Part shown: piece after piece, positions 1-35,974 of the stretch
How the letters are laid out: the number at the start of each line of letters is the position of its first letter
Position numbering within the stretch: position 1 is the stretch's first letter
Assembly: GCA_009829735.1 (NCBI GenBank)
Contig: CM020620.1
Coordinates: 5,076,299-5,140,298 of the forward strand
Direction of reading: 5' to 3'
Source: Pyropia yezoensis
Lineage: Eukaryota > Rhodophyta > Bangiophyceae > Bangiales > Bangiaceae
DNA length: 64,000 nt
Translations under genes and position numbers: made by a program
Notes under the pieces: model-generated
Seen by the model: only the letters and a program-made list of their open reading frames with translations
What the model was told of the DNA's origin: nothing
The model's database searches: none

Positions 1-2027
1 GCGCACCCCGGCGGGGGCGTGCGGTTCCCCCCCCAGTCCCCCCCCGCGCGGCGCCACCGGTCGGCGGTGGCCTTCCTCCTCCGCTCCCTCGGCGCCACCC
101 TCCTCACCGCCGGCCCGCCCGACCTCTCCCGCTTCTCCCTCCCCGTGCACCTCTTTGAGGCCCGCTCCTTCCTCCACCGCCTCCTCGACGACTGGGCGTC
201 GGCGCCCGCCTACCTCGACGCCGCCGCCGCGGCGCCCGCCGCGGCGGGGCCTGCCACCCGCGCGCTCGCCGTGACGGCGGCGGTGGTGGCGGGGCTGCGG
301 CGCTCGGCGGCGATGGGCAAGCCCTTCAACCCGCTCCTCGGCGAGACGGCGCAGGTGGCCTGGGCGACGGGCGCGGGGGCGGCGCGGCAGGCGTCCCACC
401 ACCCGCCCGTGTCAGAGTTTGCCCTCGACGGCGCCGGCTGGGCCGCCCGCGGCTGGTGCCGCGTCGGCAGCCGGCTAGTGGTGCTGGAGGGGGCGGTGCG
501 GACGCGCCGCCTGGGCGGCGTGGCGTTTACCTTCGCCGCCGACGGGGCGGTCGTGCGGCTGACGCGAGTGCCCTACCTCGTCGCGCGGGGCGTCCTCGGC
601 GCGGGCGACCGGCGGATCGAGTACGTGGGCGGGCTGAGCGTCGAGGACGCCGCCGCGGGGGTGGTCGTCGACGTCGAGGTGGGCCGCCCGCCGCCCGGCG
701 GGGGGGGGGACGGCCTGCCGGGGCTGGGCGGCCTCGCCGCGGGGCTGAGCGGCCTGGGGGGGGGGGGGGGTGGCTGGGCCTTGGCTTTGGGGGGGGGGGC
801 GAAGAGGCGCCCAGCGACGCCCTCCGGGGGGTCGTCTACCGCCTGGAGGGGGGGGGGGAGTATGGATGGTCGGGCGCCGAGGCCCGGGGGGGGGGGGGGG
901 GCACTGCGGGCCCGCCGCCCGCCGCCGCCGCCGACGCGGCCGCCCCCATTGCCGCTGCCGCCGCAGCCGACGGCGCGACGGTGGCGGCGGCCGCGGCGGC
1001 GGGCGACGCCACGCCGCCGGCACGCGGCGCCGCCACCGCCACCGCCGGCACGCCGCCCCCCCCCCCCGTGACCGTCGGGGCCGACCCCGCCTACACGCTG
1101 CCGTCGTCGCTGCCGCACGCGGCGTCGCCCTACCTCTACCCGCGGGTGCCCTATGGCTTCCCGCCCCCCCCGGGCGGCCGACCCCCCCCCGCCGCCGCCG
1201 CCGCCGCGGACAATGGCGGCGCCGCTGGCGACGGCGACGGCGACGGTGGCGACCGCCGCACGCCGCTCGCCTACCGTAGCGACGCGGTCCTGGCAGCGTC
1301 GGTGGCGGCTGCGGGCGCCGCCGCCGCGGCGGGCAGCGCGGCGGCCGCCGCGGCGGCGGGCCTGGACCGGACGGTCCTCGGCTACCTGTCGGGGTCGTGG
1401 CTGTCCCACCTGGATGTGACGCTCGTGGACGCTGTCGGCGACGGCGGCGGCGGCGGCGACGGCGGTGTCAATGGCGGCGGCGGCGGCGGCGACGGCGGCG
1501 GTGCCCCTGGCGGCGGCGGCGGCGGCGGCAGTGGCAGCGACGGGGAGGCCCCCGCCGCGCCACGCACGACGCGGTGGTGGGACGTGCGGGAGCCGCCGCC
1601 GGCGGGGGCGCGGCTGCGGCCCGCCACAGGCGCCGGCGTGTGGCCCACCGACGGGCGGTACCGGCCGGACGTGCGGGCGCTGGCGGGGGTGCTCGCCGCC
1701 GAGGGCGGCGAGTGGTCTGACGACGAGGGCGACGCCGACGGCGGCGGCGGCGGCGGTGGTGGTGGGGGCGGCGGTGGTGGTGCGGGTCGTGGGGGTGGGG
1801 GCGGTGATAGTGGCGGCGGCAAGGGCGCCGGCACCGTGGCCGACGCGGACCTGGACGCCGCGCAGGCGGTCAAGGTTGGGGTGGAGGCGGCGCAGCGGCG
1901 GGTGCGCGCGGCGCGGGCGGCGGCGGTGGCGGCGGCGCCGGGGGGGGGGGGGGGGGACGCCGCGCGCGCCTGGTACTTTGAGCCCTTCCTGCCCGCCGCG
2001 GGCGAGTACGAGGGGCCGTTCCAGTGA
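1..2027 (+). CDS. Oxysterol-binding protein-related lipid-transfer protein, 5'-partial, with a frame change
   Basis: Members of this family carry sterols or phosphoinositides between membranes at contact sites. The frame is open to the left edge, so the N-terminus (and any PH domain) lies outside. Frame 1 carries the family fingerprints: KPFNPLLGET near base 320 and ASHHPPVSEF near base 390. Frame 3 carries the C-terminal part: a GSW element near 1400, WWDVREPP near 1580, GVWPTDGRYRPDVRAL near 1640 and a terminal WYFEPFLP. The change from frame 1 to frame 3 must fall in the G-rich stretch at about 700-800, where runs of 10, 15 and 11 G occur (700-709, 756-770, 789-799). A homopolymer indel is therefore likelier than a dead gene. 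A small intron there cannot be excluded. Long Ala and Gly tracts are inserted between the family blocks. It ends in TGA and converges on the minus-strand ORF at 2545. Confidence 0.85.
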
Positions 2028-2544
2028 GGGGGGGGCGGCGGCGGGCGGCGGGGGGCGGCGGCGGGCCGCGAGCGGCGGCGGCGGCGGCCGCCGGCCACCC
2101 CTCAACCCTTCTCCGCCGTGGGATGCGCCACGGGGGCGGCACAGGTGGGCGCCGCCGTGGAGGGGCGCGACTCGGCCACGCGCACAAACGTCTCGTACGA
2201 CTTGCCCGCCCACCCCCCCCTTCCGGGTCAGCCACCCACCCACGCAGCCAGCCTCAACTAGCACAGCTGCCGTCCCTCCCCCCCCCGGCCCCTTGCCCCT
2301 CCTCCAGCCCTGCCTCCCCCCACCCACAGCCCCTCGCCCCTCCCTCAGCCCCCCCCCCCCCCCCTGACCCATCGCCCCCCCCGTTCAGTCCCCCCCATTT
2401 CCCGTCGTCCCCCCCCGTTCAGTCCCCCCCCCCTTCCCCGTCGCCCCCCCCCCCCAAGCAGTTGCCCTTCCCCGTCGCACCCCCCCCCCCTCAGTCCTCC
2501 CCCTTGCCCGGCGACGTTTACCCGTCCACGGGCGGCGTCTCGGT
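2028..2544. other. C-rich low-complexity intergenic stretch
   Basis: This lies between the convergent OSBP gene and a minus-strand small ORF. It is dominated by C and CCT runs, and I see no recognisable gene or RNA in it. Confidence 0.6.
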
Positions 2545-2799
2545 CTACAAACAGCGCCCGACGGCCGGCGGCGTCGGGTCCTCGACAAGCGCCTCGGCGC
2601 GCCGGCGGCGCGGCAGCGCGTCCACGGCCGCCCACTTGGTCACGAGGAACCGCTCCGCCGTCGCCTGCCGCCGCAGCAAGTCGGCGCGACAGTGGGCGGC
2701 GTAGGCGGCGGCGAGCGCCGCGTCGGCAACGGCGGCGGCGGGCGTCGGCCGCCGGGGGAGGACCGCGATGGGGCGGAGGAGGGTGAGGATGTCGTCCAT
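2545..2799 (-). CDS. Small unrecognised protein, 84 residues
   Basis: A longer open frame continues upstream, but that part is only proline- and arginine-rich low complexity. The ATG at 2799 begins a protein of ordinary composition, starting MDDILTLLRPIAVLP. It has a helical-looking, Ala-rich middle (about residues 20-50) and a basic tail, KWAAVDALPRRRRAEALVED then PTPP. The size, basic charge and ERF..KW..VDALP pattern resemble small mitochondrial ribosome- or assembly-type proteins, but I do not recognise a family and assign no function. It is convergent with the OSBP gene, with about 0.5 kb of C-rich DNA between. Confidence 0.45.
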   Translation of the reverse strand: MDDILTLLRPIAVLPRRPTPAAAVADAALAAAYAAHCRADLLRRQATAERFLVTKWAAVDALPRRRRAEALVEDPTPPAVGRCL

Positions 2800-3156
2800 G
2801 CCTTTGGGCGGGCGTCTAGTGGCGAGGGAGGTGGGCCGCCCGCGGCTGGGCGTGCGAGCCCGGGGGGGGGGGGGGCGTGACGCGAGGCGGCGGGTGAGCA
2901 GCCGGTGGAGGGGGGGGGGGGGGGGGGGGGCATGCCGCCGCCAGTGGGGGGGGGGGGGCGGGGTTACGAATCGAGGGGGGGGGTGGAGAGACGAGTGGCG
3001 GGGGGGGGGGGGGATGACGGCAAGAGTGCGACGCGGGGAGGGGGAAGCGAAACGATGGCCGGTTGCAAGGGCGGCGGGCAGAAGGGGCAGCGCTCCAGAC
3101 ACGACACGAGGAAGGGACGGGCGGTCGGTATCGGGATCGTCAGTTACCACTCAAAG

Positions 3157-3312
3157 CCCATCGAGGCCCCTCGAAGCCCCTCGAGCCCCATCGACCCATC
3201 GAAGGGCGCTTTCGATGGGCGTTTCCAGCCCATCGAGAGTCCCATCGAATGCGCGCTTTCGAGGGGACCCTCGACGTGGCCCCGCCCGCCAGCGCTCCGA
3301 CTGCTCGATGGA
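3157..3312. repeat. CATCGA-rich cluster, copy 1
   Basis: Within about 155 bp the words CCCATCGA, CCCTCGA, TCGATGGG and TTCGAGGGG recur in both orientations. Two anchors are shared with the cluster at 14095-14237: CCCATCGAGGCCCCTCGA near the left and CATCGAATGCGC near the right. The order is the same in both, so they are probably diverged copies of one dispersed repeat. Confidence 0.6.
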
Positions 3313-3589
3313 CTTTCTCTCACGTCCCCAAAAGCACTCTCAGGACACCCCAAACGTGCGCGAGACTACGCCACAGCGGGCCCCCGTGATTGGCCAGCCG
3401 TTGGCTGTCAGTAGGAGGCTCTTAGCCGATCGACTTCGTCTGGCTTCGCTCTCTGCCGCTGCACCATTGCGGCCAGTACCTGCGTACACACCCAGCGGCA
3501 ACCCCACTTCAGCAGCGCGGTACTGTCCCCTGCGCGTCGATGACGCCTACCATGGCCGTCCACTCCGTGGACACCCGAGCAGGCGACGC

Positions 3590-18294: not shown

Positions 18295-21200
18295 CTATGA
18301 GGAGAACCGCTGTGCGTCCTCGATAAAGCAGCACACAGAATCTCTCAGCCCTTCCCGGCTGCTCCAGTCGCCCAGCAAGTTGTCAGCCGTACGCGAGAGG
18401 CGCCTGCACCGAAAGATAACACGACCATCAATCACGTGCTTTGCGGCACCATCACGCACGACGGCAGCGAAGTCAGTGCGCATGGAAAGCGAGTGAGCAC
18501 CCACCACATAATCCACAAGCTTGGGCACTAAGGCGTCACAGTCCCAGTCCAGGATCCCAGCATAAAAATCCCGCCCATAACGCGCGCCGTTCGTCACCGA
18601 GAGAGCCTGCGACGCGGGCGCCAGCTGATCTGAAGAGCTACGGTCGGCAGGGGCCCTCAGTTGCAAAGTTGGGTGCCCCAGATAGTCCGTGGGCTCGATG
18701 CTTGATCCACCCGAGGGAATGTCAGGGGCGATTGCGCCACTGCAGCGCCCCGCACTCGACTGCCCAACCTCAGCCGTGCTCTGGTGCGCGCCGAAGCGCT
18801 GTTCAGGGTGGTTGCGCCTCTGTTCGGACACCACATCGCCGCCGTGGTCGATCACGGCGTCGACAAGCACATCTTCGGGCTTGGCCCATATGTCGTCATC
18901 ATGCTCTGCGTCTGTGTCGCCCACATCTGGCATTCCCGCCTCCGCCTCTGACACCTGTGCCACCACCTCGTCCGTCCCATCTACCTGGGCTGCCTCCTCG
19001 TCCATCTCAAGTACATTCGCAGCCCAGCTCAGGTCATGGTCGACCTCCTCCAGGGACTTAAACGGCGTAAGCTGGGCCACAAACGCCTGGACCCGCTCCA
19101 GCTTCTCTTGGCTCAGATCCTTCGCATCCGCAACGCACCGCAGCACCTGCCGAGCCGCCGCAATGTCCGACGGGACAGCCAAACTCTTGCCCACGGCCGG
19201 CAGCCCTGACGTACAGTCCACAATATCCACGACCAAGTCTATGCCCGTCCTGATAGCTCCGCCAACAATAGGCGCCAGGCTGACTCCCAGCTTGACGAAT
19301 GTCTTGGCAAACGCCACTTTCCGCTCGTGTGCCTCTTTTGCTTGCAGGTGGGGCTGTAAGTGCCGCAGCTCTTCGATGGTGTTGAACAGCAGCTGTCCGG
19401 TGTTGTCCATCGCCAATTCCAAGTGGTTGAGACGACGATTCACCTGGTTCAGCTGCCCGGCAATACAGACGTGGAGGTGCAGCGCCGTGTTCATCATGGA
19501 CCGGTGCTCGCTCGACACGAGGCCCAGGCGGACAGCATCATGCATAATGGCGGCAACAACAGGGCCGTCGCCCTCCTTCAGATACCCAAGGACGGGTGCG
19601 TAGAAGCGGTCGTAAAAGTCTTGATGGCGCTCACGAGTATCAGCAGCAGCAAACAGACCGATGCAGGAGGCAAGAACCAGCAACTGATGGGCACAACGCA
19701 GGCAGCGCTCGTCCAATATTCGGCTGAATGTTACCACCTTGAAAAAACCCTCTAGAGAGAGCCGCGCCGGCGCAGATCCAAAGACGTGCAGCGCCCTCTG
19801 CAGCACGCCCAGAGCTCGGTCTGCTGCAGTAGACAGGGTTACTGCCCCGGCGCACTGCGTGACGGCCGCCTGTCACTCCGCCTGGGCCTTATCCCGCTCC
19901 TGCTTGGCCATACGGGGCGTGGCATCCAGTAGCGGTCGAAGGATCCTGGCTGTGACTGATAACAAAGCGCGCATACTACCGGGCTGAAGCTGCTTCGGCA
20001 CCTCGGCGCCCCAGGCAATCAAAGTGGTGACCACTGCAACTAATGCGGCTCCGTCTCACAGGTTAAGGGCCACTGATAATGGGCTCCGCGCGCCACCACC
20101 GTCAACCGCGGCACCTGCCTTGAGCAATAATTCCACCACGTTCGCGTGCCCGCCCCGAGCTGCCAAGTGCAGTGCCGTCTCGCCATATATATCAACCGCC
20201 GCCACGTCCGCGCCGCTGCGCAGCAACGCGCCCACCATGTCTGCACGTCCTGTAAAGGCTGCCAAATGCAGCGGTGTCAGGCCATCCTGGTCAACTACCG
20301 CCACGTCCGCCCCCTTAGCAACCAGCACACCCACCACGTTTGCAATCCCGTTGAAAGCCGCATGATGCAGCGGCGTTCTGCCCTACTTATTACCCGCCGC
20401 CATGTTCGCCCTCCTGTTCACCAACACCCTCACCATATCTGCATGCCCGCCCCGCACTGCGACGTGAAGCGGCGTCAGGGACTTTTCGTAAACCGCCGCC
20501 ACATCCGCCCCGCTGCGCAGCAACACCTTCACAGCGTCCACGTGCCCGCGAGAAGCTGCGTAGTGCAGCGGCGTCTTACCGCACTTAGCAACCGCCGCGA
20601 CCTCAGCCCGAATGCGCAGCAGCACACTCACCACGTCCGCGCGCCCCAAGCAAGCAGCATAATGCAGCGGCGTCAGGCCATTCTTATCAACCGCCGCCAC
20701 GTCCGCCCTCTTAACAACCAGCACACCCACCATGACCGCATGCCCGCAAGAAGCTGCACGGTGCAGCAGTGTCAGGCCATTCTTATCAACCGCCACCACA
20801 TCCGCGCCGCTGCGCAGCAACGTATCCACCACGCCCGCATGCCCGCAAGAAACTGCACGGTGCAGTACCGTGTCGCCATACTTATCAACCACCGCCACGT
20901 CCGCCCCTTGGTCCAACAGCACTCTTACCACGTCCGCGTGCCCGAAAGAAGCTGCACTGTGCAGCGGCGTCTCGCCAGCCTTGTTCACCGCCATCACGTC
21001 CGCCCCCTTATCCACCAGCACCCCCACCACGTGCGCACAGCCCCACCGCGCTGCACGGTGCAGCGGCGTCTCGCCATACTTATCAACCACCGCCACGTCC
21101 GCCCCCTTATCCACCAGCACCCCCACCGCTTCCGCATGGCCCCACCGCGCTGCAATCTGCAGCGGCGTCTCGCCAGTCTTGTTAAACGCCGTCGTGTCCG

Positions 21201-22071
21201 CCCCCTTATCCACCAGCACCCCCACCACGTCCGCATGGCCCCCCCACCCTGCACGGTGCAGCGGCGTCTCGCCATTCTCGTCAACAGCCGCCGCGTCCAC
21301 CCCCTCATCTAACAGCACCCTTACCACGTCCGCATGCCCGCAAGAAGCTGCACGGTGCAGCGGCATCAGGCCATTCCTATCAACCGCCGCCACATCCACC
21401 CCTCTGTCTGACAGCATACCCACCACGTCCGCATGACCGCCCTGCGAAGCACGGTGCAGCGGCATCATGCCATCATTATCAATCACCGCCACGTCCGCGC
21501 CGCTGCGCAGCAACGCACCCACCACATCGACATGACCGCCCCACGATGCACGGTGCAGCGGCGTCTGGCCACAATCATCAACCGCCGCCGAGTCCGCGCC
21601 CTTTTCCACGAGCAACTCCACTACATTCGCATGCTCGTCCTGTGCAGAAAGAAGCATCCGCAACAGGCGATGCGTGCTACCAGGAATCGAAGATGTCTCC
21701 CTGCCAATCTGCGGCCCCGTTAAGCACGTGTGCCTGGGCCACACCGCAAGGTGCAGCGGCGTCTGGCCACCCTCATCAACCGCCGACACGTCGGCCCCAT
21801 AGAACGTCAGCAACCCTACCACGACCAAATGCCCACGTCGCGCTGCAATGTGCAGCGGCGTCAGGCCATTCTTGTCAATCGCCATCACGCCCGCCCCACT
21901 GTCCATCAGCACTTCCACCACGTCCGCATGCCACTCCCGCGCTGCAAAGTGCAGCGGCGTCTGGCCATGCCTGTCAACCTTCGCCACGTCTGCCCCTATG
22001 TCCACAAGCACCCCAACTACGTCTGCATGCCCGCGCCAAGCCGCAACGTGCAGTGACATACCACACCACAC
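18295..22071 (-). pseudogene. Ankyrin-repeat gene, 3' portion, interrupted by three stops and an element insertion
   Basis: Reading leftward from the element edge at 22071, one frame encodes 16 ankyrin repeats (TPLHxAAxxGHADVVxxLL pattern). One roughly 35-residue non-ankyrin insert follows the fourth. After a TAG (20383-20385) come three more repeats. The ankyrin part ends near a TGA at 20056-20058, and a second TGA lies at 19873-19875. The same frame then continues for 503 residues to a TAG at 18295. That C-terminal domain is not ankyrin: it has a helical segment, a hydrophobic stretch (GVSLAPIVGGAIRTGIDLVV), an acidic linker and a Cys-containing tail. I do not recognise it. The frame is unbroken by indels despite the stops. 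The beginning of this gene lies at 28898-29865. Confidence 0.8.
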
Positions 22072-25000
22072 CGTCGGCGACCGGAACCACATGCAACTCA
22101 ATCACACACACTGCATGGCGTTGTATTTCACAATTTTCCACTGCAACGTACTGCAGCATTACGCGAAGACCGTCCATTGATGAAAAAAGAGCGCCACTGC
22201 AGTACATGTCATGACTTGTGTATCTCCGCATCTTCTGTTATTTCCCTGCAACACAGGTCCCTCATGCACATCACCGCTCCTCACACACTGGCCATCGCGA
22301 CTCCGACAGTCGCATCGGACAAGCTGGTCGAGTCACGGACGACGAAACATCGACCTTTCGTTCTCCACGCCTACACGCCCGGCCGCCAGTGTCGTCTTCG
22401 TTCGAAATACATCGCTGAAGAGTCCACCAATTCTTCCGACCCGACCAGATCGCGCGGTCCGGACGTTTCAGGACATCTGATTGACCACACAGCCTCGCCC
22501 GAGCCTCCATTCACGCAGGCTACTTTTTGGCATCCCCTCCTGAACATGCTCATTTGCGCATCTACCGACGCCAGTGAGCTGATTCTGGACTCAGCTTGTC
22601 TTAAATCGCACCAAGATCCTCCACAAGTGATGATCCAGTTCCCGGCTCGCACCCCTCCCACATCACCACGCGAAGCACCTCCCGAGAATCGTCCTTGGGG
22701 AGGGGCACGGTGCCTTCTGGGCCCAAGTCAGAGGACTGTCGACTTGGTGCCGTCAGCGAAGAGCAAGAGCCTGTACGTCTGCGTGTCCATGATTAAAGAT
22801 TTCACCGAATCGCCTCTCCTGGCCACGTCCTGAGCAATCCCCACCCCTCTTTCCCAGAATTCTCATCTGACTCCTCAAATCCTAGTCAATCGCAGCTCCG
22901 GATGCTCTCTGCCTCCCCGCCCCCCTGCGCCCCCCCAGCCCTCCCAGTTGCTCATGTTGACCCGCCCTCCAAGAAGGGCTTTCAATACATCAATTCAGCT
23001 CTGGGAACTTGTTCGGGACGACGAATGACGACGGGAGCAAGACGCTGGGCTCATTCGACAGCGTGATCCCCCGCTCCCGGGCAAGCTACTGCGACGTAAA
23101 AAATTATCCCGCAGGGGCATGGAGGACTGACAAGCTACCAAATCGGTCTCACTTCAGATTTCTTCTCGAGAAAGTTAGCAGACCTTAATTGTTCATGATA
23201 AGTCTCATTCGACACCACTATCGTGAGTTTGCACAGGGGCACCATCGCGTTCTGGTTGGTCGATGTGATGATATGTTTTGAAAACGTTGCATTTCCGCAT
23301 GCTCTCTTGATGACTTACATTAGAATGCTCGAGCACTCCGAAATTGGGGATGCTTCAAGTACGTTTTCGTCAGTATTTTAACTTGCCGTGTGCGCAAGTA
23401 CAGGATCTTTTGTTGAACTCTTACAGAATCTGAACAGAGTGGGCAGATCCTTGCACGGGCTTGCTCCATATGAAGATTATTTGCTTGACCAATCAGCGCA
23501 ATCCGCCACCACCACTTGGCGCCCAATGAATGAACTGGTGGCTACTGTCGCTGCAGTGGAGACCGCACGCCATTGGATGCGTGTGGAGCACAAACCGGGC
23601 TTGCCACACATTGCCCCCTCCACCCACCGCCTTGCCTCCACCTCATCCCCCCCTCCACACCCCGCTCGCACTCTCCACCATCCCCTGCAGGCGCTCTCCC
23701 GGACTGCCCCTTCTCCCACCGTGTCGTGTCCCATTCCTTTCCGGCTCCCCCCCAACAACCCCCCGTCTCCACCCCCCGCGCCCCTCTTCTCTCCATCTCC
23801 TCTCCCACTTCCCCGCACCCATGCCCCCCCCCCCACCCCCCCCCATCTCCACCCCTCGCGCCCCCCCCGCGTCCCTCCATCTCCTCTCCCGCTTCCCCGC
23901 ACCCACGCTCTTTCTTTTCCGCTTACTCTTCTTGTCCACCACTCAGGTATGTGCGGAGGATGTCATGGGTGGTGCATGTTGGTGGATCGGCTGGACGGAG
24001 CTGCTCTGGTGATGTACGTGGGTGTGTGCGCGGGGGACTGCTCGCGCAGTGGTACGAGAGGGCGTGTGGGAGGGTGGCAGTTGCCGTGCTGGTGGCGGTA
24101 GGAAGACGATACACATGGGGGTGCCATACATGCACAGTTCCATGTCATGCGCTACATTGGCTTGCATTTCCCTGCATGTACGTTGCGTTGGCTTGCAATT
24201 ACCTGCATGTTTTTGATATTCACGAGTTTTTTGCCCGCTACGTACCTTTCGCAGTACCTTCTTAATGTGATCCTTACCGCGCTGGCGTCCTCTCTTCCCT
24301 TCCCCTCCGCCCCCGGCTTTCCGGCTCCCCTCCACGCGATTTCGCACCCCCCGGCGCCCTCTCCCTCCTCCCGTTGGTCTTTCTGTGTACCCATCAGGTT
24401 TGCGCAGAGTATGCCGTGAGTGGTGCATGTGGATGGATGAGCCGGACGCAGCTGCGATGGTGATTTAGGTGGGTGCGTCGGCGGGTGGATGCGTCTGCTG
24501 TGGTACGGGAGGACATGTGGGCGGGAGGCCGCGGGCGTTGTTGTGTGCGTCGGGTGACGGCGAGTACAGGCGGCCGCGCGTGGGAGCACCAGCAGGCGTG
24601 CGGAGTGTCTGGCGGGATCCGTTGAACGGTGTGTCTGCCCACTGTGTCAGGGACGGCGGGTGTCTGGGGCCGCGCAGACACTGTGGCGAGGCATTGACGT
24701 CGATGCGGCAAGTGGCTGTGACTGTGTCTGTTTCTCGTGTGTGTCTGTGCCTGTGTCTATTCACCCGGTCAGGCAGCTCCAGGTGGCCCGCCTCTGTAAT
24801 TCGTGTCCAAATGCTTTGAGAAGGTGCTGAGTAACTACTAAAGTGAACAAAAATGGATGAGCGATTCCACAAGGACCGGAATAAAAGGGGCCGTCATCCG
24901 GCGTCCTCCGGACTGTGCCGGGTACGCACTGTAGTGGCCTATTCAACTCTATGTGTTTCACACTGCAGTCTAGCTTGCATTGGGGTGTGTTACGGAATGC

Positions 25001-25150
25001 AATACACGTGGTGTATGGTGCATCACACGAATCTTGCTGCCCTTTTTCGGTGCCTGAGTTGCAAGCATCTGCCTGTATCTACTGCATTTCAAACAGGCGT
25101 TGAAATACAAGAAAACATGCAGTGAAGTACAGTGGTTCCGGTCGCCGACG
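22072..25150. mobile_element. Left copy of a 19-bp-TIR element, 3079 bp
   Basis: It begins with CGTCGGCGACCGGAACCAC (22072-22090) and ends with the exact inverse (25132-25150). Next to both ends are subterminal words such as CACTGCA and GTATTTCA. The whole sequence recurs inverted at 25366-28897. No transposase motif is visible, so it is probably non-autonomous. It sits inside the ankyrin gene. Most differences from the right copy lie near the two ends, while the middle is nearly identical. Confidence 0.85.
22180..22833 (+). CDS. Element ORF, 217 residues, unrecognised (left copy)
   Basis: It starts with ATG about 90 bp inside the outer terminal repeat and is matched by an ORF of the same length in the right copy (28136-28789). 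It has two early Cys/His pairs (HCSTCHDLC) and a Ser/Thr/Pro-rich remainder. It shows no known domain. Retention in both copies is weak evidence of coding, because the copies are nearly identical overall and the differences near its start change amino acids. Confidence 0.3.
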   Translation: MKKERHCSTCHDLCISASSVISLQHRSLMHITAPHTLAIATPTVASDKLVESRTTKHRPFVLHAYTPGRQCRLRSKYIAEESTNSSDPTRSRGPDVSGHLIDHTASPEPPFTQATFWHPLLNMLICASTDASELILDSACLKSHQDPPQVMIQFPARTPPTSPREAPPENRPWGGARCLLGPSQRTVDLVPSAKSKSLYVCVSMIKDFTESPLLATS

Positions 25151-25365
25151 ATGGCGGCGGTTGACGAAGATGGCCAGACGCCGCTGCACCGTGCAGCGTG
25201 GGGGGGCCATGCGGACGTGGTGGGTGCGCTGGTGGACAAGGGGACGGACGTGGGGGTAGGTGACGACGTTGGCAAGACGCGGTTGCATTATGCAACGCGG
25301 GGTGGACATGCGGACGCGATGCGTGTGCTGCTCGGCAAGGGCGCGATTGCGGTGGCGTTGGATAT
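25151..25365 (+). pseudogene. Inverted 215-bp ankyrin-gene segment between the two elements
   Basis: The plus strand encodes two ankyrin repeats (AAVDEDGQTPLHRAAWGGHA, then a diverged KTRLHYATRGGHADAM). The rest of the ankyrin gene is on the minus strand, so this piece is reversed. Turned round, its ends fit the two flanking parts. The 5' part ends GAC-AT and the segment begins ATG-GCG, which keeps frame if one AT is counted. The segment ends GAT-AT and the 3' part begins GTG-TGG, which keeps frame if one dinucleotide is dropped. The junctions thus look like a 2-bp target duplication at GAYATG. Confidence 0.8.
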
Positions 25366-26365
25366 CGTCGGCGACCGGAACCACTGTATTTCACTGCATG
25401 TTTTTCTGTATTTCAACGCCTGTTTGAAATGCAGTAGATACAGGCAGATTCTTGCAACTCAGGCACCGAAAAAGGGCAGCAAGATTCGTGTGATGCACCA
25501 TACACCACGTGTATTGCATCCCGTAACACAACTCAATGCAAGCTAGATTGCAGTGTGAAACACATAGAGTTGAATAGGCCACTACAGGGCGTATCCGGCA
25601 CAGTCCGGATGACGCCGGATGACGGCCCCTTTTATTCCGGTCCTTGTGGAATCGCTCATCCATTTTTGTTCACGTTAGTAGTTACTCAGCACCTTCTCAA
25701 AGCATTTGGACACGTATTACAGAGGCGGGCCACCTGGAGCTGCCTGACCAGGTGAATAGACACAGGCACAGACACGCACCAGAGACAGACACAGTCACAG
25801 CCACTTGCCGCATCTACGTCAATGCCTCGCCGCAGTGTCTGCGCGGCCCCAGACACCCGCCGTCCCTGACACAGTGGGCAGACACACCGTTCAACGGATC
25901 CCGCCAGACACTCCGCACGCCTGCTGGTGCTCCCACGCGCGGCCGCCTGTACTCGCCGTCACCCGACGCACACAACTACGCCCGCGGCCTCCCGCCCACA
26001 TGTCCTCCCGTACCAGAGCAGACGCATCCACCCGCCGACGCACCCACCTAAATCACCATAGCAGCGGCGTCCGGCTCATCAATCCACATGCACCACTCAC
26101 GGCATACTCTGCGCAAACCTGATGGGTACACAGACAGACCAACGGGAGGAGGGAGAGGGCGCCGGGGGGTGCGAAATCGCGTGGAGGGGAGCCGGAAAGC
26201 CGGGGGCGGAGGGGAAGGGAAGAGAGGACGCCAGCGCGGTAAGGATCACATTAAGAAGGTACTGCGAAAGGTACGTAGCGGGCAAAAAACTCGTGAATAT
26301 CAAAAACATGCAGGTAATTGCAAGCCAACGCAACGTACATGCAGGGAAATGCAAGCCAATGTAGC

Positions 26366-27040
26366 GCATGACATGGAACTGTGCATGTATGGCACCCCCA
26401 TGTGTATCGTCTTCCTACCGCCACCAGCACGGCAACTGCCACCCTCCCACACGCCCTCTCGTACCACTGCGCGAGCAGTCCCCCGCGCACACACCCACGT
26501 ACATCACCAGAGCAGCTCCGTCCAGCCAATCCACCCACATGCACCACCCATGGCATCCTCCGCACATACCTGAGTGATGGACAAGAAGAGTAAGCGGAAA
26601 AGGAAGAGCGTGGGTGCGGGCAAGCGGGAGAGGCGATTGAAGGGAGCGGGGGGGGTGCCGGGGGTGGAAAGGGAAGGGAGGACGCCAGTTCGACAAGAAA
26701 AAGATCCAGAAGAACCTGCGAAAGGTGCGTAGCGAGTAGAACACTGGTGAATATGCAAGATAGTGCAGATAATTGCAAGCCAATGCAGCGCAGCTGCAGG
26801 GAAATGCAAGCCAATGTAGCGCATGACATGGAACTGTGCATGTATGGCACCCCCATGTGTATCGTCTTCCTACCGCCACCAGCACGGCAACTGCCACCCT
26901 CCCACACGCCCTCTCGTACCACTGCGCGAGCAGTCCCCCGCGCACACACCCACGTACATCACCAGAGCAGCTCCGTCCAGCCGATCCACCAACATGCACC
27001 ACCCATGACATCCTCCGCACATACCTGAGTGGTGGACAAG
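26366..27040. repeat. Internal tandem repeat of about 455 bp in the right element
   Basis: GCATGACATGGAACTGTGCA occurs at 26366 and again at 26821, 455 bp apart. The following roughly 210 bp are almost identical, then the copies diverge in G-rich sequence. An older, more diverged unit precedes them (about 25980-26365). The left element has one fewer unit. Confidence 0.7.
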
Positions 27041-28135
27041 AAGAGTAAGCGGAAAAGAAAGAGCGTGGGTGCGGGGAAGCGGGAGAGGAGATGGAGGGAC
27101 GCGGGGGGGGCGCGAGGGGTGGAGATGGGGGGGGTGGGGGGGGGGCATGGGTGCGGGGAAGTGGGAGAGGAGATGGAGAGAAGAGGGGCGCGGGGGGTGG
27201 AGACGGGGGGTTGTTGGGGGGGAGCCGGAAAGGAATGGGACACGACACGGTGGGAGAAGGGGCAGTCCGGGAGAGCGCCTGCAGGGGACGGTGGAGAGTG
27301 CGAGCGGGGTGTGGAGGGGGGGATGAGGTGGAGGCAAGGCGGTGGGTGGAGGGGGCAATGTGTGGCAAGCCCGGTTTGTGCTCCACACGCATCCAATGGC
27401 GTGCGGTCTCCACTGCAGCGACAGTAGCCACCAGTTCATTCATTGGGCGCCAAGTGGTGGTGGCGGATTGCGCTGATTGGTCAAGCAAATAATCTTCATA
27501 TGGAGCAAGCCCGTGCAAGGATCTGCCCACTCTGTTCAGATTCTGTAAGAGTTCAACAAAAGATCCTGTACTTGCGCACACGGCAAGTTAAAATACTGAC
27601 GAAAACGTACTTGAAGCATCCCCAATTTCGGAGTGCTCGAGCATTCTAATGTAAGTCACCATGAGAACATGCGGAAATGCAACGTTTTTAAAACATATCA
27701 TCACATCGACCAACCAGAACGCGATGGTGCCCCTGTGCAAACTCACGATAGTGGTGTCGAATGAGACTTATCATGAACAATTAAGGTCTGCTAACTTTCT
27801 CGAGAAGAAATCTGAAGTGAGACCGATTTGGTAGCTTGTCAGTCCTCCATGCCCCTGCGGGATATTTTTTTACGTCGCAGTAGCTTGCCCGGGAGCGGGG
27901 GATCACGCTGTCGAATGAGCCCAGCGTCTTGCTCCCGTCGTCATTCGTCGTCCCGAACAAGTTCCCAGAGCTGAATTGATGTATTGAAAGCCCTTCTTGG
28001 AGGGCGGGTCAACATGAGCAACTGGGAGGGCTGGGGGGGCGCAGGGGGGCGGGGAGGCAGAGAGCATCCGGAGCTGCGATTGACTAGGATTTGAGGAGTC
28101 AGATGAGAATTCTGGGAAAGAGGGGTGGGGATTGC

Positions 28136-28789
28136 TCAGGACGTGGCCAGGAGAGGCGATTCGGTGAAATCTTTAATCATGGACACGCAGACGTACAGGC
28201 TCTTGCTCTTCGCTGACGGCACCAAGTCGACAGTCCTCTGACTTGGGCCCAGAAGGCACCGTGCCCCTCCCCAAGGACGATTCTCGGGAGGTGCTTCGCG
28301 TGGTGATGTGGGAGGGGTGCGAGCCGGGAACTGGATCATCACTTGTGGAGGATCTTGGTGCGATTTAAGACAAGCTGAGTCCAGAATCAGCTCACTGGCG
28401 TCGGTAGATGCGCAAATGAGCATGTTCAGGAGGGGATGCCAAAAAGTAGCCTGCGTGAATGGAGGCTCGGGCGAGGCTGTGTGGTCAATCAGATGTCCTG
28501 AAACGTCTGGACTGCGCGATCTGGTCGGGTCGGAAGAATTGGTGGACTCTTCAGCGATGTATTTCGAACGAAGGCGACACTGGCGGCCGGGCGTGTAGGC
28601 GTGGAGAACGAAAGGTCGATGTTTCGTCGTCCGTGACTCGACCAGCTTGTCCGATGCGACTGTCGGAGTCGCGATGGCCAGTGTGTGAGGAGCGGTGATG
28701 TGCATGAGGGATCTGTGTTGCAGGGAAATAACAGAAGATGCGGCGATACACAAGTCATGACAACTATTGCAGTGGTGCTCTCTTTTCAT
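28136..28789 (-). CDS. Element ORF, 217 residues, unrecognised (right copy)
   Basis: This is the counterpart of the ORF at 22180-22833. It differs mainly in the first 25 residues (HCNSCHDLCIAASS) and by one Gly/Ser change in the middle. The same caution about coding applies. Confidence 0.3.
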   Translation of the reverse strand: MKREHHCNSCHDLCIAASSVISLQHRSLMHITAPHTLAIATPTVASDKLVESRTTKHRPFVLHAYTPGRQCRLRSKYIAEESTNSSDPTRSRSPDVSGHLIDHTASPEPPFTQATFWHPLLNMLICASTDASELILDSACLKSHQDPPQVMIQFPARTPPTSPREAPPENRPWGGARCLLGPSQRTVDLVPSAKSKSLYVCVSMIKDFTESPLLATS

Positions 28790-28897
28790 CAGTGGACGGT
28801 CTTCGCGTGATGTTGCAGTACGTTGCAGTGGAAAATTGTGAAATACAACGCCATGCAGTGTGTGTGATTGAGTTGCATGTGGTTCCGGTCGCCGACG

Positions 28898-29865
28898 ATG
28901 TCCGCCCCCTTATCCACCAGCACTCCCACCACGTCCGCATGGCCCCCCCACGCCGCCACGTGCAGCGGCGTATCGCACAACTTCTTCACCGCAATCACGT
29001 CCGCCCCCTTATCCACCAGCACCCCCACCACGTCCGCATGGCCCCCCCACGCTGCATGGTGCAGCGGCGTCTGGCCATCTTCGTCCATCGCTGTCACATC
29101 CGCCCCGTTGTCAGCCAGCACACACACGACCCCCGCATGGCCGCCCCGCGCTGCATTATGCAGCGCCGTCTCGCCATACTAATGAACCGCCGTCACGTCC
29201 GCCCCCTTATCCACCAGCACCTCCACCACGTCCGCATGGCCCCCCAACGCTGCACGGTGCAGCGGCGTCTGGCCATCTTCGTCAATCGCCGTCACATCCG
29301 CCTCGTTGTCAGCCAGCAACCCCAATGCATCCGTATGCCCACACCCCGCTGCAAGGTGCAGCGCCGTCTGGCCGTCCATGGCGCTCGCTGTCACGTCCAC
29401 ACCACAATCCAGCAGCAGCATTACTGCTCTCGCGTGCCCGCTAAGGACGGCAACATGGAGGGGAGCCCAGCCCAGGTGACCAACAACACCCAGATTAACC
29501 CCAACTGGCGCCAGTGTCCGCAAATCCTCTTCATCCCCCTCCCATGCAGCAACGTGGAGCGGCGTCCACCCTAGCTCGACCTTGTGCGCCTGCGCGTCCG
29601 CCCTGAGCGTCAACAGCGCAGCCGATGTTGAAACCAAGCGAGCCTGCAGCGCAACCCGCAAAGGCGTCGTCCCCTCCACCGTGCGCTCGTCCACTTCCGC
29701 ACAGGCATCGGCCAGCACGCGGAGGATCATCCAACCGTCCATACGTTCAGCCGCCAGGTGCATGGGCGTGCTGCCGTCTGCGCGCAGCGGACGTCGCGCA
29801 GCCGCAGCGTCTGCCTCGCACACCCTGCGCACGGCGACAGCGCCGCGCCTCAGAGCCGCTTCCAT
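28898..29865 (-). pseudogene. Ankyrin-repeat gene, 5' portion
   Basis: It starts at the ATG at 29865 (MEAALRRGAVAVRRVCEAD). Six ankyrin-type repeats follow before an in-frame TAG at 29179-29181, which replaces the residue before YGETALH. Three further repeats continue in the same frame up to the element edge at 28898, where the reading is KGAD then element sequence. Early repeats are more diverged (STPMHLAAERM, TTPLRVALQAR), and those near the element match the array at 20-22 kb closely. With the inverted segment and the 3' portion, the gene would have carried about 30 repeats plus a C-terminal domain. Confidence 0.8.
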
Positions 29866-32817: not shown

Positions 32818-34304
32818 ATGGCCCCCCTGCGGACATCCCTGGCCGGCGCCCCCGCCTGGGTCTTCGGGCTTCCCGCGGCAAGCCGCCGCCTGTGGACGTC
32901 GCCGCTGCCCGTTGCCTCGTCGGTGCGTCCCGCCAGCGGTGCCGCTGGGACCTTTCTCCCTGGCAGCGCCGCCACCGTCCCCGTCGCAGAGTCAGGCTCT
33001 GTGAGGGCGGCACTGCAGGTGCCGCCGTCGGCTGCGCCCTCGGCGCCTGCCGGGGCCGTGTCGCCGCCCCGGGCAAACCGCCCTTCCCATGCGGGAGCCG
33101 CCCCTGCGGCCGGCGCTTCCCCGCCCTCCCCGGTGGACGCCCCCGCCACGGTGCGGGTGCCGGCAGATCGCCTCCGCGCCGCCTGCTCGACAATCCTGTC
33201 CAGGGCCGGCTACCCCGCTGGCCAGGTCGCCATGATGGTGGACGTGCTCCTCTACGGCCAGCTCAGCGGCAGCAGCCAGACGGTGGCCAAGCTGGTGTCC
33301 CGGGGCGTCGGCTCGCTGGCGGGCCCAACCCGCCGCCGCGGGCCGACCGCCGCCGCCGCCGGCACAGCCACCGACGTCAATGGCGGTGGCGACGATGAAA
33401 CCGCAGCCGACGACGGCGGCGGGGTGCCGGCTGAGCTGGTGGAGGTGGTGTCCACCCCTGTGGCCGCCCGCCTGGACGCGACGGGCGTGCCTGGGATGGT
33501 GGCCATGACCGCCGCCGCCGACGCGGCGGTGGCACGCGCGCGGAGCATGGGGATTGGCCTCGTCGCCACCGCCGGGTCGGTCGACGGCACCGGCGCCATT
33601 GGCTACTATGCGCGGCGGGTGGCGGCGGCGGGCTTCTTTTGCCTAGCCGCCAGCGGCGCGTCGCCCCCACTGGTCGCCCCCGTCGGCGCGTCCGCGGCGC
33701 TGGTCGGCACCAACCCGCTCGCGTTTGGCATCCCCTATGGCGGGAGCGCCGGGGACGATGCCGACGGCTTGCACGGCAGTGACGGCGGTGCCGCCACTGG
33801 TGCGGTGGTGGCGGACATTGGCACGTCCGCCATGAGCTACTGGGAGGTGGCCCGCATGGCCGACGACGCCCCCCTGCCGGCGGGGGTGGCGCTGACCACC
33901 GACGGCGCCGAGGCCGCCACCGCCGCGGCGGCAGCGGTGCTCCGCCCGTTTGGCGGCCCGCGGGACGCGCACAAGGGGTCTGCGCTGGGCCTGCTCGTCG
34001 AGTGGCTGACGGGCCCGCTGGTCGGCGCCACCGTCGTGGGTGGCGCCGCCGGCGGGTCGGCGGCGGGGTCGTCGGCCACCGACGGGCCGGCGGGGTGGGG
34101 CAACTTTGTGCTTGCCATTGACCCGGGGCTGCTGCGGTCGCGGGCGGCGGTGCTGGGCGAGACGAGCGGGTGGGTGGCGGCGTTGCGGGGGGGGGGGTGG
34201 TGTTGCCGGGCGCCGGGGGGGCCGCCCGCCGGGAGACGGCCAGGGCGCGGGGGGTGCCCGTCGAGGCGGCCGTGTGGGCGCAGCTGCAGGCGCTTGCGGC
34301 GTGA
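32818..34304 (+). CDS. Malate/L-lactate dehydrogenase-like (Ldh2 family), with a C-terminal frame change
   Basis: Ldh2-family enzymes are NAD(P)-dependent 2-hydroxyacid oxidoreductases. The first 110 residues (MAPLRTSLAGAPAWVFG...) are low in acidic residues and may be an organelle transit peptide. Family blocks follow: GIGLVATAGSVDGTGAIGYY near 245, GTNPLAFGIPYGG near 300, DIGTSAMSYWEVARM near 335 and DAHKGSALGLLVEWLTGPLVGA near 385. At the 11-G run 34187-34197 the homologous reading moves to another frame (LPGAGGAARRETARARGVPV) that stops with TGA at 34302-34304. An indel in the run is therefore likely. The usual family histidines (SHG and NHFG motifs) appear as GQLSGSSQT and SVDGTG, so the chemistry may differ. 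Confidence 0.75.
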
Positions 34305-35974
34305 CGGCCACGCGGGGCTGGCGCGCGGGCAGAGGGGTATACAGCGTCGGAAGACGGGGGTCGAAAAGATGGATTAGCGACTATTTTCATCACATTATTA
34401 TCAAAACCTGGTCGATAGGAGCCACGTGGTGATCATGCGCCTCGTCCCGCCCTTCGAAAGAGATCTGTGTTTAAGAGACACAACGGCACACGCTTGAATT
34501 GGAGGGCAAGGGGGGGCACGGAGACGAGTGCAAGTCGCCGCCGCCGCGTGGCCGCGCCCCCCACTCAGTCCGTTTGCCGCCCCACCCACACTTTCCCCCC
34601 CACGCGGCTTCCCGGTGTTCCGCCTCGTCGGTGATGCAAACGGTGAAGGCGGCGGCGCTCATCGAGCCCACCACCCCGGGAGTTGCCTGCCCGCGCCCCC
34701 TGTTTGCTCCCCACCCCTCGTCAAGCCTGACAGTTGCGCCGTAATGGCGGCGCCACTCTACCAGGCGCCGCCTGCCGCCGCGGATGCATAAACGTCAGGG
34801 GGTCCCCGGCGGGCGTGCGAGGCAGGGCGGCAACGCGGCCGGGGTGGGGCCGGGGGGGACGGGCGGGACGAGGGGGCCGGCCGGCGGCTGCATTATTTTG
34901 CTCCTCTTTCCCCTCCACCCCCTACCCCACTTGCCTCCCGCGCTCGCCCAGCCGCTGCAGTCCCCCTTCTTTCCTTCTTCTCGTCCTCCCCGCGCCAGGC
35001 AGGGGCCCTGCTCTTTGACGCTGGCTTGGAATTTCACGCCCCGCCGCTGCTGCGGGCGCCGCTGCCTCCCGAGAGGGGCGGCCACACGCCCCCGCTGCCA
35101 CCCTCACCCCCCCCCCCCCCCCCCCCCTCCTCCCCCGCGCATGTCTCTCCCCCTCTTTGCCAACGCGGTGGACAGGGGCGCCACGATGGCAGTGGCGGTC
35201 CCCTACCCCCTCAGTGGCCGGGGACGCTGTTCGTTTTCTTGTCTTTCGGGACGATGGGCAGCCGCCCTGGTTCTCTCCTCCCGGTGAGGCGGGGGGGGGG
35301 GGGGGGACCACGCCGTGTTGCACGCTTGGCTGCCTGCCAGACGGGCGGCCGGCCGGCCTCGTGTGGGTGGCGTATCGTCGTCGTCGGCGCCCCCCCCTCC
35401 TCACCCGCGGCACGCGCTGCCGCCGCTACTATCGAGCCGCCGCAGCAGCAGCGCGACGGCAGCCGCGGCAGCGGCAGCGGTGGTGGCGGCGGCAGCGGTA
35501 ACAGCGGCGGTGGCGACGGGGGTGGCTTGGCGTTGGGGGTGGGGCTGGCGTGGGGGCTCCTTACCGCGCCGCTCCCCCCCGCCTCTCCCTCCCCCTCCCC
35601 GCCCACGGCTGGGCGGCCGGCACAGGCTCGCAGCGGCTGCGGCGCGTGGGGTGGGCGCTCTTTTGGCGCCCTCTTCTCGCCACCCCCCCCCCCCTTAGGT
35701 TGCGCCTGCGCACGGGTGGGTGGTTCCCACCGAGGACGACCCACGACAGCAGCAGCAGCAGCAGCAGCAGCAGCACTCGATAGAGACATCCCCCTGCCCA
35801 CCACGCCCCTGACTGTCTGCTACGCGCGCTGTCCCCTGACGCACGCCGGCCTGCGACACCGGGGGGGGGGGGGGGGGCGGCAGGAGGTACGCGCGCGCAA
35901 CGCAACGCGCGGCGGTGAGCCATCCGGTGGGGCGGCGTCACCGCGCTCCCCAGAGACGTGTTGCCCGCTTGGGC
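34305..35974. other. Intergenic low-complexity stretch
   Basis: It holds C runs (about 35107-35128), G runs and a (CAG)9 tract at 35747-35773. The ORFs on both strands are driven by composition. It presumably includes the promoter of the co-chaperone gene that follows. Confidence 0.45.
35747..35773. repeat. (CAG)9 microsatellite
   Basis: Nine uninterrupted CAG triplets lie in the intergenic region upstream of the J-domain gene. Confidence 0.9.

Follow-up and report, generated by a model that had tools for sequence, protein, structure and literature searches.

Inverted repeats of plastid genomes flip-flop: they exchange sequence and convert each other, and the segment between them is able to turn. 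A nuclear transposon-based parallel is provided by Galileo in Drosophila buzzatii, opposite-orientation copies of which lie at inversion breakpoints, where both copies are described as chimeric, in keeping with ectopic recombination (PMC2775673). Here we analyse a window of 64,000 nucleotides from the red alga Pyropia yezoensis (C3:5076299-5140298, C3 being contig CM020620.1 of assembly GCA_009829735.1), in which an ankyrin gene is interrupted by two opposite copies, A and B, of one transposable element, and in which the 215 bp of ankyrin sequence between these copies read against the rest of the gene. We consider it probable, at roughly 0.75 and judging from the sequence, that the two elements were inserted in opposite orientation and that recombination between the inverted copies subsequently turned the 215-bp segment.

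The locus resembles the Galileo inversions in that two opposite copies of a DNA transposon flank a segment and look chimeric. It differs from them in that the inverted stretch comprises 215 bp within one gene and is not a chromosomal inversion, in that the centres of the copies are homogenised too, in that the target duplications are 2 bp long and uninformative, and in that it is seen in a single assembly without an uninverted allele. Its likeness to plastid flip-flop lies in inverted repeats that appear to exchange with and convert each other, but here the repeats are nuclear, made by a transposon and only partly homogenised, and any turning at the present day would be conjectural.

The 19-bp terminal repeat of the element occurs at four sites in the window when up to three mismatches are allowed, and all four are exact (shuffled controls gave a mean of 0.08 and a maximum of 1). 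These sites delimit element A (22072-25150, plus strand, 3079 bp), which runs from its alpha end (22072-22090, plus) to its beta end (25132-25150, minus), and element B (25366-28897, minus strand, 3532 bp), which is of the same family but in the opposite orientation, with its beta end at 25366-25384 (plus) and its alpha end at 28879-28897 (minus); the extra 455 bp of B relative to A are a tandem duplication. The terminal repeat is exactly 19 bp long in both elements, beyond which the two ends of each diverge, the alpha end reading CGTCGGCGACCGGAACCACATGCAA and the beta end CGTCGGCGACCGGAACCACTGTA followed by T or C and then TTCA. The beta ends face the 215-bp segment and the alpha ends point outward, and along the two longest inverted arms complementarity stands at 98% and 97%. 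The initial annotation was correct in describing two opposite copies of one element with 19-bp ends. The flanking dinucleotides are AC on the alpha side of A (22070-22071), and AT on the beta side of A (25151-25152), on the beta side of B (25364-25365) and on the alpha side of B (28898-28899). Given that none of the three open reading frames (ORFs) searched, two in A and one in B, has a Pfam match, both copies look non-autonomous; a search of the window against Rfam returned no match at gathering scores.

The segment between the elements (25151-25365, plus strand, 215 bp) corresponds to about two ankyrin repeats of 33 amino acids. On the plus strand it reads MAAVDEDGQTPLHRAAWGGHADVV... and matches Pfam Ank with E=1.9e-13, whereas both parts of the gene read ankyrin on the minus strand, which confirms that this DNA stands against the strand of the gene. 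The gene is a single minus-strand frame from 29865 to 18295, interrupted by the elements, the segment and four in-frame stops. Its 5' part (28898-29865, minus) contains one of these (TAG, 29179-29181), and its 3' part (18295-22071, minus) contains the other three (TAG, 20383-20385; TGA, 20056-20058; TGA, 19873-19875) together with further repeats and a C-terminal domain that is conserved though it has no Pfam match. Besides itself, the best-scoring DNA matches of the segment are repeats of this same gene (82, 81 and 79%); among other genes, the top-scoring match reaches 73% over 206 bases.

A paralogue at C3:84705-89357 consists of one open frame of 1586 codons with an ankyrin array (1551 residues from the first Met, as compared with 322, 71 and 1258 for the three parts of the window gene), and it matches the window gene at 68% in the N-terminal part and at 68% in the C-terminal domain. 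Aligned to this paralogue, the 5' part reaches residue 322 and the segment finds its best alignment over 224-294; residue 7 of the 3' part falls at 301, which puts the extrapolated start of that part at 295. With the segment placed in the sense of the gene, the register modulo 33 accordingly runs 25, then 26 to 30, then 31 across the junctions, with 0 residues missing or extra at either of them. Since the two junctions sit at different points of the repeat, the fit does not arise merely from all of these sequences being ankyrin. It had been proposed that the frame is kept at both junctions once one copy of a dinucleotide is dropped, and that both insertions were at GAYATG sites; the register is indeed exact at both junctions, but one of the four flanks departs from AT, reading AC on the plus strand and GT in the sense of the gene. 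The paralogue was also considered as an empty allele, but it is not an allele, and its length differs, so that it provides register and architecture and does not fix the exact place of the segment.

Because the window gene carries four in-frame stops while its paralogue is one open frame, it is most likely a pseudogene, and this in either orientation of the segment. No frameshifts were seen in it, which is not a compelling sign of selection, since substitutions outnumber insertions and deletions by about 30:1 over all pairs of the 32 element copies aligned below. Recoding of the stops is unlikely, since two are TAG and two are TGA.

In the genome searched, a 107.5-Mb assembly of 11 contigs, the 19-mer has 203 matches with up to two mismatches, against 23 for a reversed control pattern. 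With up to three mismatches there are 84 alpha and 83 beta ends, from which 57 facing neighbour pairs were obtained, 38 of them 0.6-5.3 kb long and 19 of them 12-43 kb long; the longest of the latter may be chance pairings, and 53 of the 167 listed ends are unpaired. Flanks were read for 39 copies, that is, for the 38 short pairs and for copy L031, one end of which lies outside the beta list. The two flanking dinucleotides match each other in 37 of the 39 copies, 34 of which have AT on either side, and in none (0/39) are the 3-bp flanks equal, which shows that a 2-bp target duplication is the family norm. Besides A, the only copy with unequal flanks is L020 (C1:7771435-7774516; CT and AT), a candidate recombinant or point change. 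Swapped target duplications, which might have served as a test of the flip, are uninformative, AT being the family norm and three of the four flanks of A and B being AT.

Recombination between A and B was examined in an alignment of 32 copies; L024, L025, L027, L031, L032, L042 and L051 were left out for their length or a different alpha end, and the 19 longer pairs were kept apart, two of them being read. A and B are 98.4% identical and mutually closest overall (the next-best identity is 97.0% for A and 97.1% for B), and their differences amount to 0.58% in the centre (columns 400-2799) and to 3.25% at the ends. Over the 496 pairs of the 32 copies, the ratio of centre to end differences is lowest for L045a/L045b (0.11) and A/B (0.18), followed by 0.72, with a median of 1.34, and the two lowest pairs are the only close inverted neighbours among the 57 facing pairs (gaps under 20 kb). 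Letters private to A and B with respect to the 30 other copies are found at 16 central sites and 2 end sites. That the centres are homogenised in both of the close inverted pairs suggests frequent local exchange.

The second close inverted pair, L045 (C2:28109111-28117301), consists of two copies that stand 1209 bp apart and are near-identical except in their alpha ends. Their differences amount to 0.13% in the centre and 1.2% at the ends, with 13 of 17 falling in columns 1-335 and the beta end nearly identical; an inverted duplication is a possible alternative origin for this pair. Its spacer was considered as another flipped piece of a gene and rejected, the spacer itself being repeated, with at least 42 matches including itself.

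The distribution of alleles along A and B suggests that their ends have been exchanged. The closest other copy is L019, and at 11 sites that differ between A and B it carries a minority allele (one that no more than 10 of the 30 other copies have). This allele is found in B at 6 of 6 sites in columns 117-392 and in A at 5 of 5 sites in columns 1245-3533, a split for which Fisher P=0.0022 presumes independent sites, although the sites are linked and so not independent. Across all 49 A/B differences, L019 carries the letter of B at each of the 13 in columns 0-392, sides once with either copy at the two in columns 393-1244, and shares the letter of A at 8 of 9 in columns 1245-2801. At the beta end, where most of the 25 differences are changes private to A or to B, L019 matches A at 14 and B at 11. 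Two alpha-end and three beta-end sites, which were picked after the A/B allele pattern had been viewed, form complete sets at both ends only in L019, L033 and L048 among the 30 other copies, the other 27 having neither complete set, while B has the alpha set only and A the beta set only.

Trees of successive stretches (midpoint-rooted, with ultrafast bootstrap) place the alpha end of B with L019 (82) and that of A with L045b and L052 (85), whereas of the two middle stretches the first joins A and B to L052 (100) and the second joins A and B to L019 (100), a pattern suggestive of conversion running both ways. The net switch of alleles between A and B maps to 22461-23302 of A (plus strand), equivalent to 27667-28508 of B, an interval in which the two are identical over 646 alignment columns. 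A chimeric make-up of A and B is supported by these sequence comparisons, strongly at the alpha end and in the middle and weakly at the beta end.

Several observations weigh against this history. The borders between centre and ends were drawn after sliding windows had been inspected, and shared private sites are unspecific, the distant pairs L044/L047 and L030/L035 having 24 and 21 of them as compared with 18 for A/B. The tree of the beta end places A with L033, L048 and L019 at a support of 34 only, and puts B beside that group (48) and not with L052, with distances of 23 vs 26 both ways; moreover, in the 32-copy alignment the beta end of B shares no rare allele with any other copy. Because the beta tree is weak and such alleles are lacking, the beta half of the swap rests on the three clade sites present in A and absent in B. 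The dinucleotide at 22070-22071 is AC, where the other three flanks of A and B are AT, and a false join placed anywhere within the 646 identical columns would leave the same chimerism.

The sequence of events that we propose would begin with the insertion of two non-autonomous copies, of a family that we relate to Plavaka below, into one ankyrin gene, in opposite orientation and 215 bp apart, each insertion duplicating a dinucleotide. In the simplest history an L019-like element would have entered the 5' site and an L052-like element the 3' site, with conversion occurring between the two. A net odd number of crossovers within 22461-23302 of A would then have inverted the 215 bp and left two chimeric elements, and the same pair would have exchanged sequence in mid-element, the homogenised centres pointing to gene conversion. 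An odd number of crossovers between inverted copies implies that the segment between them is turned, and its reading direction shows the same independently. Two insertions followed by recombination between the inverted copies had been suggested in the initial annotation, and this is supported by the 2-bp duplication norm of the family, by the exact register, by the chimerism, weak as it is at the beta end, and by the homogenised centres.

The serious rival is misassembly: the assembler or polisher might have switched between the inverted arms, in which case the segment truly stands in the sense of the gene and the chimerism is spurious. The entire structure is only 6.8 kb long, a length that long reads usually span, and the arms retain 49 differences by which they can be told apart, and on these grounds we hold a misassembly to be unlikely. 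In addition, the window contains 0 N, and distant pairs that are about 2% different (L044/L047 and L030/L035) exhibit no centre effect. It is the identity of A and B over 646 columns within the switch interval that makes such an error conceivable, together with the contig N50 of 340.8 kb given for the published PacBio assembly (PMC7423979).

Aberrant transposition, in which the transposase would have used the ends of two elements jointly and reinserted them (hybrid-element insertion), thereby inverting the segment, is a route described for other DNA transposons (PMC2775673), and the terminal repeats are intact in both elements. The same source, however, associates hybrid insertion with two identical copies and ectopic recombination with chimeric ones; the 3.25% divergence of the ends and the apparent chimerism of the copies at this locus lead us to regard this route as improbable. 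We give still less credence to a composite unit, in which the ankyrin segment would have arrived with the elements from another ankyrin gene: ankyrin stretches are abundant in the genome (235 matches to the N-terminal part), but the segment scores best against the repeats of its own gene and is in register with the two broken ends, which interrupt the 33-residue repeat at different points.

Least credible of all is a reversible switch that turns the segment back and forth and so alters an expressed ankyrin protein (the initial annotation had raised, on condition of reversibility, a DNA switch that shuffles ankyrin repeats): the grouping of the middle stretches with L052 and then L019, and unconverted sites between identical tracts, do suggest more than one exchange, but the frame entering from the 5' side is closed by a stop at 28789-28791, which lies some 0.1 kb within B and not in the interval to which the crossover maps, the gene has its four other in-frame stops, either orientation leaves the elements in place, and the borders are the ends of a dispersed transposon family, with its 203 genome matches, rather than dedicated recombination sites.

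Inversion by recombination between A and B therefore remains the reading we prefer, and the structure looks like the scar of a known process, not a working switch. A more tentative extension, which we think possible though doubtful, is that neighbouring copies of this family in opposite orientation keep recombining with and converting one another in the nori genome, in which case the segment would still flip and its orientation would vary among thalli or inside a single one. Were that so, the locus would be a natural reporter, tagged by sequence, of recombination between inverted repeats in a seaweed. In any event it offers a small, readable case: its insertion sites, the repeat register and the donor haplotypes agree in indicating that a transposon mediated an inversion within a gene.

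The family of A and B can be related to Plavaka by way of two large copies with the same family ends and several ORFs, one of 12.5 kb (C3:3150229-3162703; L055, L056) and one of 12.8 kb (C1:41240256-41253040; L057, L058). Both have AT on each side, and both are 85-86% identical to A over about 975 bp at the alpha end and over 499 bp at the beta end. In the 12.5-kb copy a fragment at L055:9208-9972 matches the Plavaka transposase, PF18759, at 34 bits against a curated cut-off of 26.3 (E=2.5e-8), and the 12.8-kb copy has two shorter, overlapping PF18759 fragments below that cut-off, one of 12.4 bits and one of 16 bits (E=0.0075). In frames of the 12.5-kb copy the spacings C(2)C (CTPC) and H(4)H (HRTVSH), which have been described for the CMCT clade (PMC12730594), are visible by eye. 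A and B look like non-autonomous relatives of this 12-kb Plavaka-like transposon. The Plavaka-like transposase of the 12-kb elements is split over several frames, perhaps by introns, and one ORF in the 12.5- and 12.8-kb elements has a weak zinc-finger match (E=0.01, below the cut-off).

The family is thus like the Plavaka elements of fungi in the PF18759 match of its 12.5-kb member, in its 2-bp target duplications and in the C(2)C and H(4)H spacings; it is unlike them in its ends, CGTCGG..CCGACG, and in its red algal host. Plavaka termini are reported as TGT..ACA or CATCA..TGATG, with target duplications of 2 or 3 bp (PMC12730594), and because the termini found here differ from these we call the family Plavaka-related and not a member. 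In the open-licence PMC literature, covered mostly through titles and the beginnings of abstracts, we found no report from red algae of a Plavaka-related family or of an inversion of this kind; the present analysis brings such a family to light in a red alga. Within the family, L024 (C1:17418003-17418614) is a miniature copy of 612 bp with the same family ends and AT flanks, and L025, L027, L031, L032 and L042, which are 2.5-5.3 kb long, make up a subfamily in which the alpha ends continue with GCGC instead of ATGC.

Two further observations concern the surroundings and the genome at large. Ankyrin arrays at C1:17130709-17141559 contain open frames 3425 and 1105 codons long, and their many equally scoring matches suggest that the repeats expanded recently. 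In the window itself, an ORF of 519 amino acids at 32818-34377 (plus strand) matches malate/L-lactate dehydrogenase Ldh_2 (PF02615, E=1.5e-37).

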